From: Chitinophagales bacterium
GTDB taxonomy: Bacteria > Bacteroidota > Bacteroidia > Chitinophagales > CAIOSU01
DNA: 64,000 nt
Reading direction: 5' to 3'
Assembly (NCBI GenBank): GCA_026003335.1
Contig: BPHB01000002.1
Coordinates: forward strand, 744,001 to 808,000
The position numbers were made by a program, and so were the translations under genes. Shown piece by piece: positions 5,633 to 64,000 of the stretch (position 1 is its first letter; every line of letters starts with the position of its first letter). The notes beneath the pieces are model-generated. The model searched no databases, had not been told where the DNA came from, and saw only the letters and a program-made list of their open reading frames with translations.

Positions 5633-7174
5633 TTACCGTATTTTAATCAGTTTCCTCACAATGTTTGCCCTGTTGCCGGCAATCTGCAAAAAGTACGTGC
5701 CGGGCAGTAGCTCCGAAAGTTTTATCGTCTCGGCACAGGATGTCTGCTGCATCAGCGTTGAATGTTTTTCAAAAAGTACTCTGCCCCTTACATCCGATAG
5801 CTGAACCATCCAACTACCTGAGAAACAGGGGAACACAATTTGTATTTCTTCGGCAAATGGATTGGGGAAAACTGTTGCGGTTTGTTTTTCTGCTGATCGC
5901 ACACCCACAACGGAATCCTGAGACAAGTCAATAACCACAACCGGAAGGGTGAAGGTATCACATAACGGCTGTGTGCACCCCGTATTGCAGGAAACCAATG
6001 CGACATTGTATATGCCACCTTCTGTATACACATGAGTAATGGCATTTCCGGTTGCCGAAGCTGGGGAAGAGCCATCATCAAAAAACCACTCAAACGTATT
6101 GGCATTTACTGAGAGGCTGTAAAAGCTTATCTCCACGCTATCTGCATTCTGACCTATGATAGCCGGAAACGGCACATATCCGAAGATGGAAGCAGGCTCA
6201 AAACACCGCAGGCTGTCTATATAGTCCAGGTTCTGATAGATTAACGTGCCTCCCACGACCCATGCGGATACACTCAGCAGCGGAATGCCATAAGCGGGAG
6301 AAAGCCACTTATATTCAATCTCCTGATTGGGAATAATCTGTCCGGGAAGGAAATCTGCCAGCGCTAGGGTGTCATTTTGAAAAATGATGGTGTCATAATT
6401 ATAAATTACCGATTTAACTTTTAATACATCTGTAAAGGTGCCATAGGGAGTTTTTAAAGTACCCCACCCTTCCACATAGTTATACCTGCGCTGACCGTGA
6501 TTATAATAGAAAGATACCGGCAGGGTCACTCCGGGAATGGAATCAATCTTTAGTGAATAATTACTATAGGATGAATCGGTATTGCCATAGGCAACAGGGA
6601 AACGATAAATACGATCGGGCTGTGCATACTCTATCATAACCGGAAAGCCGGAAACACGGGCACCCACCGCCACCTGCTCCAAAGCATCAGTGCGAAGATC
6701 AAAGAAATTATAAATATCACGGATTGTGGTAATGCCCAGATTGATGGAATCGTTGGCCACTTCAGCCAGGTCAAAACGATTTACCCAGTTGGAAAAGCAG
6801 GTAGCATTGCAGGTGAGATTGCAGGAGCCTGCACACAGAAAGGCAGGAGTGCCGTTGGCCACACAGGAATTATAGCAATCGGTATAGCAGCGGGCATTGC
6901 AGGAAAACAAATACACCGCCCCGAAACCGGTGCGATTGGGATCAATATAGCGCACTACCCTTTGTGATATGGGGTTAAAACCCGAAAAATCCCACGTTAC
7001 TCCCTGCCCACTGAGTTGATAATCGTAATTATCAATATCCGGCAGGCTGATTTGACTGACAATGAAACTGTCCTGAGGAGAAGCATAATTGCTGCTCTGA
7101 TATACGGATTGACCGAATGCTGTACCTTGAAACAACAAAATCAGAATACCAAAAGACTTATAATGCAATTTCAC
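5633..7174 (-). CDS. T9SS type A cargo protein with PKD domain and C-x3-C repeat cluster
   Basis: The protein has about 513 residues: a signal peptide (KLHYKSFGILILLFQGTAFGQ), a module with QGVTWDFSGFNP, a Cys-rich insert (plus-strand 6797-6907) with eight Cys in two groups spaced exactly four apart (CNARCYTDCYNSC and CAGSCNLTCNATC), a module shared with the 1-1561 protein (YRFPVAYG, WGTLKTPYGTFTDV), a PKD-like domain (FEWFFDDGSSPAS) and a type A sorting domain (TVFPNPFAEEI to LIKIR). I chose the GTG at 7174 because it starts the signal peptide; the longer TTG at 7243 overlaps a good promoter box. The Cys spacing matches the repeat in the protein at 61160-64000. Function is unknown; an exported structural protein is inferred. 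Confidence 0.85.
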   Translation of the reverse strand: MKLHYKSFGILILLFQGTAFGQSVYQSSNYASPQDSFIVSQISLPDIDNYDYQLSGQGVTWDFSGFNPISQRVVRYIDPNRTGFGAVYLFSCNARCYTDCYNSCVANGTPAFLCAGSCNLTCNATCFSNWVNRFDLAEVANDSINLGITTIRDIYNFFDLRTDALEQVAVGARVSGFPVMIEYAQPDRIYRFPVAYGNTDSSYSNYSLKIDSIPGVTLPVSFYYNHGQRRYNYVEGWGTLKTPYGTFTDVLKVKSVIYNYDTIIFQNDTLALADFLPGQIIPNQEIEYKWLSPAYGIPLLSVSAWVVGGTLIYQNLDYIDSLRCFEPASIFGYVPFPAIIGQNADSVEISFYSLSVNANTFEWFFDDGSSPASATGNAITHVYTEGGIYNVALVSCNTGCTQPLCDTFTLPVVVIDLSQDSVVGVRSAEKQTATVFPNPFAEEIQIVFPCFSGSWMVQLSDVRGRVLFEKHSTLMQQTSCAETIKLSELLPGTYFLQIAGNRANIVRKLIKIR

Positions 7175-7240
7175 GCAATGAGGAATAGATATTTTTAAAA
7201 AAGCAGGGCAGCATTTTGCATGGACTGGTTTTCGGGCAAC

Positions 7241-7248
7241 CAAATTTA
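7241..7248 (-). promoter_or_regulatory. Bacteroidota -7 promoter box (TAAATTTG)
   Basis: The minus strand carries TAAATTTG, a perfect TAnnTTTG box, about 70 bases before the GTG start at 7174. Its position over the alternative TTG start at 7243 argues that translation begins downstream. No clear -33 element was found. Confidence 0.45.
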
Positions 7249-61159: not shown

Positions 61160-64000
61160 ATGTATAGGCGGATGATTCTTGCCGGAGTGTTGGTGCTGCT
61201 TGCCGGATTTCTGCATGCCCAGATCTCCTGTTCTACCCTCTCAAAAATCCGTGTGCTTCTGGTAGGTGACAGCTGGACACACATCATGTGGAATAACCGC
61301 ACCTACCAGGACGTGTTTAATCAGTTTGGCTTTGCAGATATTGCAGAAAGGGGCACCTATACCGCCATCGGGGGTACTACGGCAAGTTTCTGGGCTGCAC
61401 CAGCAAATCTGCAAATCATCCTGAACGAGTTACAGCAACACCCCACCGTGGACATCGTTGTGCTCAGCATTGGCGGCAATGACATGCTGGCCGGAATGAA
61501 TGTTTCCCCTCCGGGATGGCACACCGGCTTAAGTGCCGGAGCCGAAACGCAGCTTTTTGACCGTATTCAAGCAGACATACAAACTATCGTTGACGGAATT
61601 AAGAGCGTGCGGCCAAATATTGAGATTGTATTCAGCGGTTATGACTACCTGAATTTTGTGGAAACCGTTATTAACGATCAAGGTGGGAACATCATCTTAA
61701 TGTGGGCCAATCTGGGACAACCTAATGCCTTTCAGATTAATAGCGCCTTCAGTCGTTTTGAACAGCGTAAAATCAATATTGCCAATGCTGATCCACGTGT
61801 GTACTATGTGCACGCTCTGGGATTAATGCAGCACATCTATGGTTATCCGGGTATTTTCTCTCCGTTTTCTGTGCCGGCTCCGGGTCAAACTCCCCCTTTG
61901 TATGCCCCGTTTCCTGGAGGTGATCCTAACTTTCCTACCCCTCCTGTTGCCCTGGCTAACAATGGTCTGGATGCTATTCACCTGAGTGATGACGGTTATC
62001 GTCATCTGGTTGTCAATCAGATGTTATCTTACTTATTGAACAAGTTCCGTGGTAACCCTCCTGCAACCTTTCATTCCCAAGGAGGACTGCATGACGGGTG
62101 GGTACGTTCCGATGGCAATTTAGGAGTGGGGGGCGTGCGTGTGGGAGATCAAGGCTCAGGCATGCTTTACCGCGGAATTCTTTCATTCAATACAGACACC
62201 CTGCCGGATCAGGCAGTCATTACGGGAGCAAGTCTGTTTATAAACCGTGCCGCTCTATCGGGGACAAATCCTTTTCAAACCGGGATGCTTGGCCCTCCCT
62301 CGGTGGATGTAAAAACGGGCTCTTTCGGTGGAGCCGCCATAGAAGTCAGTGACTATTTCAGTGCCGCTGATGCGGTAAATGCCGGTTGCTTTGTCGGCAC
62401 TGCGCCTGCCGATGGCTACACCATCCGCATTGACCTAACTCCGGCCGGTTTCGGCAAGATAAATAAAACGGGTTTAACACAATTTCGCCTGTCTTTTTCT
62501 TATGCCTCCGGTTCTGCCAATGACTATGTGCAGTTTCATACAGGCGACCAGCCCGGACTGTTAGCTCCCTACCTGGATGTTTTTTATACATTACCTTCTC
62601 CTCCTGCCACAGCACGGGTATATGGAGACACGGTGATTTGCAGCGGATCTTCTGCTTCGATTTATATAACCCTCAGCGGTTCGCCTCCCTGGAATATCAC
62701 CTGGTCTGATGGAGTAACAGAAACAGGACTCACTTCCCCCCAACATGTAAGGAGTGTCAGCCCGTTGGTTACCACAACCTATCAGATTGTTCAGCTCACG
62801 GATGCGCAAGGAAGCGGCACTCCTTCCGGTTCCGCATACATTGAAGTCTTACCGTCCGTTCCGGTTTCTGTAAGCGGTCTGGCATCACACTACTGCGTGA
62901 ATACGCCCCCTTCTACTCTGCTTGCCAGCCCTCCCGGTGGAGTATGGTCAGGTCCCGGCATAACGGGAACTATCTTTAACCCCGCCCTGGCGGTTCTCCA
63001 AAGCGGAGGGGGAGGTATAATTTCGTTGACCTATTCAGGCACCTATCTGTCTTGCCCTTACTCTAAGGATTTTCCGGTTGTTGTAGATTCCGCATCCTGC
63101 ACTACTGACGGATCGTGCAGCTTTGCACCGGTGAGTGGCACAGTTTCCTGTGTGGGAGCAAGAACTCTGAACTTCACTTATAGCAGCAGCGGAAGATTAT
63201 ATGTATTCAAAGATCTGATTCCCGGAAAAACCTACGTAGCATCAACCTGCGATAGTTGTGGATTTGATTCCCACCTGATGATTCGCGATGAGAGCGACAG
63301 CTCTTTTATTGCTGAAAATAATGACGCCTGTGCAACAGCCTCTTCAGTTACCTTTGTGGCACCACCATCGGGAAAGATCGGGATTCATCTTTCAGCTGCA
63401 GACACATTCCCCTGCAATGGGTATGCTTGCAACCCCTACAATTGTAATCCATACCCTTGTAATCCCCATTCCTGCAACCCCTATTCCTGCAACTGCCAGA
63501 CGTGCTATCAGACCTGCTACCGAGATACATTGGTATATATGACTTGCTATCCGGGAGGTATACAGTTTATTAATGGCTATCTTACCAGCGATTGCATCGG
63601 GGCATGCACGTTTGGGTTTTGCTGGAGAATGCAGTATCAGGTGCCTTATGACTGCAATCCTTACCTCTGCAACTGCCAGACGTGCTATCAAACCTGTTAT
63701 GACACTTGTTATCAAACATGCTATGATACCTGCTATCAAACCTGCAGCGATGTTTGCGGCACGGATAATATGATTCCCTGCACCGTATCTCTGCGGTGTG
63801 TAGATTGCCAGATACCTGCTGCAGTTCTTTCAGCCAGTAGAATTTCGGCTTGTATGGACGACAGCATTCAGTTTGCCGCTACCGTTTATGGCGCCACGTG
63901 CAACACCACATATCTATGGAATTTCGGTACCGATGCACAGCCAACCTCCTCTAACCAGCTGAATCCGCCTCCTGTGCGATGGACTACCAGTGGAACAAAG
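61160..64000 (+). CDS. Large exported SGNH hydrolase with C-x3-C repeat module (3' end outside window)
   Basis: From ATG 61160 the frame is open to the last base, 947 codons with no stop. The signal peptide (MYRRMILAGVLVLLAGFLHAQ) is followed by an SGNH/GDSL hydrolase domain (about 25-300; block I GDSWTH, block III GGND, block V DAIHLSDDG), a beta-sandwich region (about 310-480), Ig-like modules with PPGGVWSGPGI, and a Cys-rich module (63402-63830): four CNPY units, two copies of CNCQTCYQTCY with a 24-base exact DNA repeat, and an uninterrupted C-x3-C run (CYQTCYDT units). A PKD-like domain (YLWNFGTDAQP) ends the window. Serine hydrolase on surface glycans or lipids is inferred; a sorting domain probably lies beyond the end. 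Confidence 0.88.
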   Translation, partial: MYRRMILAGVLVLLAGFLHAQISCSTLSKIRVLLVGDSWTHIMWNNRTYQDVFNQFGFADIAERGTYTAIGGTTASFWAAPANLQIILNELQQHPTVDIVVLSIGGNDMLAGMNVSPPGWHTGLSAGAETQLFDRIQADIQTIVDGIKSVRPNIEIVFSGYDYLNFVETVINDQGGNIILMWANLGQPNAFQINSAFSRFEQRKINIANADPRVYYVHALGLMQHIYGYPGIFSPFSVPAPGQTPPLYAPFPGGDPNFPTPPVALANNGLDAIHLSDDGYRHLVVNQMLSYLLNKFRGNPPATFHSQGGLHDGWVRSDGNLGVGGVRVGDQGSGMLYRGILSFNTDTLPDQAVITGASLFINRAALSGTNPFQTGMLGPPSVDVKTGSFGGAAIEVSDYFSAADAVNAGCFVGTAPADGYTIRIDLTPAGFGKINKTGLTQFRLSFSYASGSANDYVQFHTGDQPGLLAPYLDVFYTLPSPPATARVYGDTVICSGSSASIYITLSGSPPWNITWSDGVTETGLTSPQHVRSVSPLVTTTYQIVQLTDAQGSGTPSGSAYIEVLPSVPVSVSGLASHYCVNTPPSTLLASPPGGVWSGPGITGTIFNPALAVLQSGGGGIISLTYSGTYLSCPYSKDFPVVVDSASCTTDGSCSFAPVSGTVSCVGARTLNFTYSSSGRLYVFKDLIPGKTYVASTCDSCGFDSHLMIRDESDSSFIAENNDACATASSVTFVAPPSGKIGIHLSAADTFPCNGYACNPYNCNPYPCNPHSCNPYSCNCQTCYQTCYRDTLVYMTCYPGGIQFINGYLTSDCIGACTFGFCWRMQYQVPYDCNPYLCNCQTCYQTCYDTCYQTCYDTCYQTCSDVCGTDNMIPCTVSLRCVDCQIPAAVLSASRISACMDDSIQFAATVYGATCNTTYLWNFGTDAQPTSSNQLNPPPVRWTTSGTK
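63487..63690 (+). repeat. Direct DNA repeat in the Cys-rich module
   Basis: The 24 bases beginning CTGCAACTGCCAGACG are identical at 63487-63510 and 63667-63690, 180 bases apart, and encode CNCQTCYQ. After the second copy the related 24-base CYQTCYDT unit runs on in tandem with a few base changes. In-frame repeats of this sort can change in number by slippage or recombination. Confidence 0.85.

Follow-up and report, generated by a model that had tools for sequence, protein, structure and literature searches.

The window, a 64,000-nucleotide stretch of a Chitinophagales contig, ends within a long open reading frame on the forward strand. This frame encodes a predicted exported SGNH protein with a Cys-rich module in a beta-sandwich domain. 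A second protein, on the minus strand, carries a smaller Cys hairpin. The features are located as follows.

61160..64000 (+): predicted exported SGNH protein of 1428 aa, starting at the ATG at 61160 and running 1446 bp past the window end to contig position 809446 (open reading frame; Lipase_GDSL_2, E 2e-7; TIGR04183; SprA in the genome)
61253..62008 (+): putative SGNH hydrolase domain, residues 32-283 (Pfam PF13472/PF00657 just under the curated cut-offs; GDSW, GGND, and DAIHLSDDGY motifs)
63092..63412 (+): host beta-sandwich, part N-terminal to the insert, PPC/collagen-binding-like (AF2 strands, Foldseek, L293 homologue)
63413..63517 (+): arm A, (CNxYx)5-CN-C-QT-C-YQT-C, Cys gaps 5,5,5,5,5,2,3,4
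63518..63652 (+): 45-residue tip separating the arms, with 4 further Cys (78% identity to the SKYG42 relative)
63653..63745 (+): arm B, CNPYL-CN-C-QT-(CYxT)5-C, Cys gaps 5,2,3,4,4,4,4,4 (94% identity and 9/9 Cys conserved in the relative)
63746..63826 (+): return to the host domain, with the CSDVC tail of the arm ahead of the final beta strand CTVSLRC (AF2 strand, domain residues 231-237)
6797..6901 (-): all-tetrad Cys hairpin in a second T9SS-type protein (ORF 5633-7243, minus strand), Cys gaps 4,4,4 / 10 / 4,4,4

The GDS, GxND, and DxxH motif blocks of SGNH/GDSL hydrolases are read in the N-terminal part of the large protein as GDSW, GGND, and DAIH. The Pfam GDSL profile scored this part at 32.1 bits (E 2e-7), 0.8 bits short of the 32.9-bit cut-off. 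By its motifs, the N-terminal part is supported as an SGNH/GDSL hydrolase with putative activity. At the C-terminus, the T9SS type A sorting domain TIGR04183 scored 28.6 bits against a cut-off of 23, and SprA of the T9SS is encoded in the same genome. This combination identifies the protein as a predicted T9SS export substrate, and the description of a large exported SGNH hydrolase in the initial annotation is upheld. An Ig-like array (residues 1018-1322, beyond the window end; L002 8211-9125) lies between the SGNH part and the C-terminus and matches the Aureispira grappling hook protein GhpA (PDB 9flp, E 4e-49).

The Cys tract covers residues 752-862 of the 1428-aa frame. It is a real coding tract in frame, and its first reported position, 63402-63830, is correct. 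It had been described as a Cys at every fourth residue. This is true of the TCYx units, which have a period of four (C-x3-C); the CNPYx units have a period of five (C-x4-C), and the joints are C-x1-C and C-x2-C. Arm A reads CNGYA CNPYN CNPYP CNPHS CNPYS CN C QT C YQT C, and arm B reads CNPYL CN C QT C YQT C YDT C YQT C YDT C YQT C. The change from pentads to tetrads is made through a CNC-QTC switch, and the near-repeat of the CNCQTCYQTCY block was found again as one copy per arm. Among 50000 shuffles, none had 7-Cys runs at step 4 as well as at step 5, and the longest other Cys run in the six frames of the window is 4 or fewer.

When the gaps of arm B are reversed (4,4,4,4,4,3,2,5), they complement the gaps of arm A at 8/8 positions (5 vs 4, 2 vs 3, 3 vs 2, and 4 vs 5), which gives nine Cys pairs. 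In the parallel reading, 2/8 gaps are complementary. The antiparallel complementarity indicates that the two near-copied blocks are the two arms of one hairpin, and that the CNC-QTC joint is the change of type within each arm. A few Cys remain outside the proposed ladder, which counts against it.

The hairpin in the second T9SS-type protein is symmetric, with the form CNARCYTDCYNSC-x9-CAGSCNLTCNATC. Among aligned homologues it is an optional insertion: near homologues have it, with 4+4 Cys whenever it is present, and the others have a short loop at this place. The hairpin is a design of its own and may be a cousin of the mixed-period module; the arm-matching statistics do not include it.

The module was then compared with an orthologous gene from an independent genome (L083). 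The same block is found at the same place in this gene, so the tract is not an assembly artefact. All 18/18 arm Cys are kept, and identity is 94% in arm B, 78% in the tip, 69% in arm A, and 42% in the host sandwich. In one phage family, identity is 73% in the arms, 61-64% in the host domain, and 33% in the tip. These identities fit a conserved stalk whose tip may be specialized in the enzyme and diversified in the phages. The number of units had been expected to vary between strains on account of the DNA repeat. This expectation was not borne out: the tandem repeat units found by TRF in the tetrad array match each other at only 74-82%, and the only relative that bears the module, with 60% identity across the domain, shows no change in any Cys gap.

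Recurrence of the module was studied with sequence patterns. The pentad pattern, searched over 396 genomes of the phylum, matched only the genome of the window itself, which indicates that the module is rare. A generic pattern of a Cys every four residues, searched over the class, was swamped by simple DNA repeats and was discarded. The tetrad query TCYxTCYxTC (three tetrads), used without reference to pentads, matched 73 genome loci and many viral contigs. Most of the matches in short frames are due to chance, and many matches, above all in viral contigs, were discarded because they are frames arising by chance from DNA repeats. The coding matches have a pentad tract as well. Several viral contigs are near-duplicates, and the statistics were therefore based on distinct proteins. 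Among the viral contigs found by tetrads, the pentad tract is in the same open reading frame in 26/28, and in one more it lies past an in-frame TAA stop. Conversely, tetrads are in the same frame in 20/29 contigs found by pentads; in L143 the stop divides the two, and the remaining eight lie in short frames of 43-154 aa. L143 is a phage gene on the minus strand with a tetrad arm and a pentad arm in one frame parted by a single TAA, which could be recoding, a pseudogene, or a sequencing error. Comparison of the module and the tetrad peptide with named phages by tblastn gave no real match.

The carriers include T9SS proteins (the window, L083, and L062), a Cytophagales protein (L091), Bacilli proteins that have prepilin signals and carry the module C-terminally (L054 and L103), and proteins from an archaeal MAG (L070) and a proteobacterial MAG (L100). 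The carriers from uncultured phages adjoin tail-fibre genes. By sequence, the host proteins of the module are unrelated to each other. Most of the relatives come from MAG or viral contigs whose taxon labels are uncertain, and the orthologue is from one other genome only. The L062 contig is labelled Saccharibacteria, yet its protein ends in a T9SS sorting tail; it is probably mis-binned Bacteroidota. The two Bacilli MAG proteins are large, with Ig-like or fn3 repeats ahead of the Cys module, and are possible pilus-tip adhesins.

The number of Cys was counted mechanically on both tracts, and it is equal in 18/21 carriers, with 3 to 12 Cys per tract. With one carrier per host family, the numbers are equal in 10/12 (r = 0.96, permutation p = 7e-5); without the case of 12/12 Cys, they are equal in 9/11 families (p = 4e-4). 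This count is a safer statistic than the gap-swap value of p = 1e-5, for which the arms were trimmed by eye. The 2-vs-3 switch is present on both arms at facing ends in L054, L074, L084, L086, L103, L121, L242, L244, and the window, and in L121 it is at the outer end of both arms. L103 has eleven gaps of 5 and a 2 on one arm against eleven gaps of 4 and a 3 on the other, giving up to 13 rungs with the switch rung included. In L171, a 13-residue gap is opposite a 12-residue gap. Two carriers found only by tetrads, L046 and L043, have degenerate partner arms with gaps 5,5,8/4,4,8 and 4,4,8/5,5,8, and their 8-residue gaps face each other. The rule is broken in places, by 4 vs 4 in L114, L086, L100, and L048 and by 3 vs 1 in L171, and L128, L174, and L070 are irregular. 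The distance between arms also varies: in L048, the innermost paired Cys of the two arms are separated by about 315 residues that include beta-propeller-like repeats, and L043 also has a long stretch between its arms.

The order of the arms can be swapped. Tetrads come first in L121 and pentads come first in L114 and L171, and these modules are in the same loop of homologous phage beta-sandwiches with 45-49% identity. Such a swap would be tolerable for a paired duplex and would not be expected for a directional motif.

AlphaFold2 was used to predict the structure of the window domain and of one phage carrier, as the first description of the tract had suggested. The host domain could be modelled, with pLDDT mostly 50-77 from residues 31 to 100 of the modelled domain, and the insert was placed between two adjacent strands. 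The module itself has no usable structure and no visible pairing in either model: its pLDDT is about 24-42, and the tetrad arm, if anything, is a helix below useful confidence. Foldseek with this weak model matched the host sandwich alone, with the ColH collagen-binding domain and subtilase C-terminal domains among the best matches (E 0.008-0.1). A homologue without the insert (L293, one sequence with 25% identity) has a 5-residue hairpin, C-DVNTT-C, at the insert site. This loop gives moderate support to the placement of the module in a hairpin loop of the beta-sandwich.

No match covering the module was found in Pfam, NCBIfam, PHROG, or PDB sequences, and EGF-type modules were rejected as no Pfam, NCBIfam, or PDB sequence matched. 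The Cys pattern had been judged different from EGF, TSP, and knottin patterns, and the Pfam result agrees; no known Cys-rich family with an established fold was matched among Pfam, NCBIfam, or PDB sequences. A full-text literature search found no paper printing the motif strings within its coverage, which takes in few subscription journals.

These data lead us to propose that the module is a stalk of two strands paired through Cys, probably by a ladder of disulfides, and that it displays a tip. We give this reading a probability of about 55%. The stalk would be inserted in the hairpin loop of the beta-sandwich, with one arm mainly of pentads (C-N-P-Y-x) and the other mainly of tetrads (T-C-Y-x). 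The arms would run antiparallel, so that every Cys of one is opposite one Cys of the other, and a change of arm type (CNC vs CxTC) would be mirrored on the opposite arm. Disulfide is taken as the default chemistry because the protein is exported; the facing Cys would most likely form a protease-resistant ladder of nine rungs holding the 45-residue tip. The same stalk would have 3 to 13 rungs in the phage and pilin-type proteins, where it would probably present a receptor- or substrate-binding tip, and the stalk could serve as a binding arm or as a rigid spacer. Candidate geometries are a beta-ribbon with a bulge per pentad, or a helix against a wrapped strand.

Phage virion proteins fold in the reducing cytoplasm, so phage disulfides must form late or not at all, which speaks against a disulfide ladder. 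VKOR, the one thiol oxidase that was sought as an oxidizing partner, is absent from the genome of the window. Disulfides do occur in a phage virion, as the report on the phage Milano tail shows (PMC10811340); they differ from the module in being intersubunit bonds in the sheath and baseplate, and the passages on them describe no periodic Cys tracts. The same antiparallel arms could instead hold Cu, Zn, or Fe between facing Cys, as a metal-binding rod. Gap complementarity suits any 1:1 pairing of Cys, cytoplasmic folding of the phage proteins would favor thiolates, and the small Tim twin-CX3C proteins, in their reduced state, bind Zn (PMC3759932). However, the window protein is exported to where thiols are normally oxidized, the arms are not dominated by His or CxxC clusters, and no metal gene neighbors the module in the contig stretch that was read. 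Metal binding is thus rated as unlikely. The disulfide ladder or metal rod offered in the initial annotation is borne out in a sharper form, in that the two blocks look like complementary arms, with disulfide as the likelier chemistry of the rungs and metal as the less likely one.

Equal Cys counts would also follow if arm A of one chain paired with arm B of another, in a domain-swapped dimer or a phage trimer. The result would be a surface patch with covalent cross-links, and oligomers are frequent among phage tail proteins. Both arms, however, emerge from neighboring strands of a single hairpin, and a spacer can have as few as 5 residues (L062), a feature that favors pairing within one chain. 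Pairing between chains is therefore considered quite improbable, and the cross-linking patch suggested earlier has become less likely, as an equal count of Cys on each arm indicates that the pairing is internal (or domain-swapped).

The low-complexity composition, the tandem repeats in the DNA, and the disorder-like AF2 confidence would all be compatible with two independent simple repeats made by DNA slippage and having no defined structure. Slippage of one tract cannot yield matched numbers on two separate tracts with mirrored switches, nor does it agree with full retention of the arm Cys in a relative whose sandwich has diverged so far, which makes this origin very doubtful. A CXXX-repeat substrate of radical SAM peptide maturases with thioether, RiPP-like modification is rejected as scarcely credible: the module shares a Cys at every fourth residue with these peptides (TIGR04114 and TIGR04117) and has a weak TIGR04114 similarity, but its 13.7 bits are below the cut-off of 20, no TIGR04115 maturase, which such peptides need, is encoded in the genome of the window or in the relative's genome G785 (0/2), and the tract sits within a large T9SS enzyme, whereas true CXXX peptides (L079, with 51.1 bits against a TIGR04117 cut-off of 50, and L042, just below it) are small and all-tetrad without a pentad partner.

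The proposed Cys-paired stalk can be compared with known systems. In small Tim proteins, Cys at regular intervals on two antiparallel arms form the pairs C1-C4 and C2-C3 (PMC3759932). The mitochondrial small Tim (twin CX3C) and CHCH (twin CX9C) proteins resemble the proposed stalk in this arrangement; they differ in being small, soluble, and alpha-helical, with two Cys per arm and the same spacing on both arms. The module has 3-13 Cys per arm, a spacing of 5 against 4, and Pro/Asn in nearly every pentad, and it is inserted in large surface proteins. Its tetrad arm is CX3C, its partner arm is CX4C with Pro, and the AF2 helix is at very low pLDDT. A phmmer search of PDB sequences with the tetrad-arm peptide gave a weak match to TIM10/13 (E 0.5-2). 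Bovine ultralong CDR H3 resembles the module as a long hairpin in a beta-sandwich loop that presents a variable Cys-rich tip (PMC5994613, PMC8602281); it differs as a vertebrate antibody without homology to the module. The twin CX3C/CX9C hairpin comes closest in principle, and the bovine stalk-and-knob CDR in architecture. The stalk of the bovine CDR H3 is a beta-ribbon without a Cys ladder.

Taken further, and somewhat more tentatively than the stalk itself, the module may be an undescribed antiparallel Cys ladder of mixed period, with 5 vs 4 residues per rung and scalable length. It would be portable, recurring as a stalk in T9SS enzymes, pilin-type adhesins, and phage tail-region proteins, and its unlike strands would be interchangeable in order, as in a duplex. 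The Cys-dense phage proteins raise the question of how they are oxidized. If the pairing holds, the Cys count and spacing on two arms would be a simple sequence rule that predicts structure where AlphaFold fails, and the rung number, which could be set at will, would be attractive for engineered rigid spacers. The module would also mark a stalk that is common to phage tail-region proteins and bacterial surface proteins.
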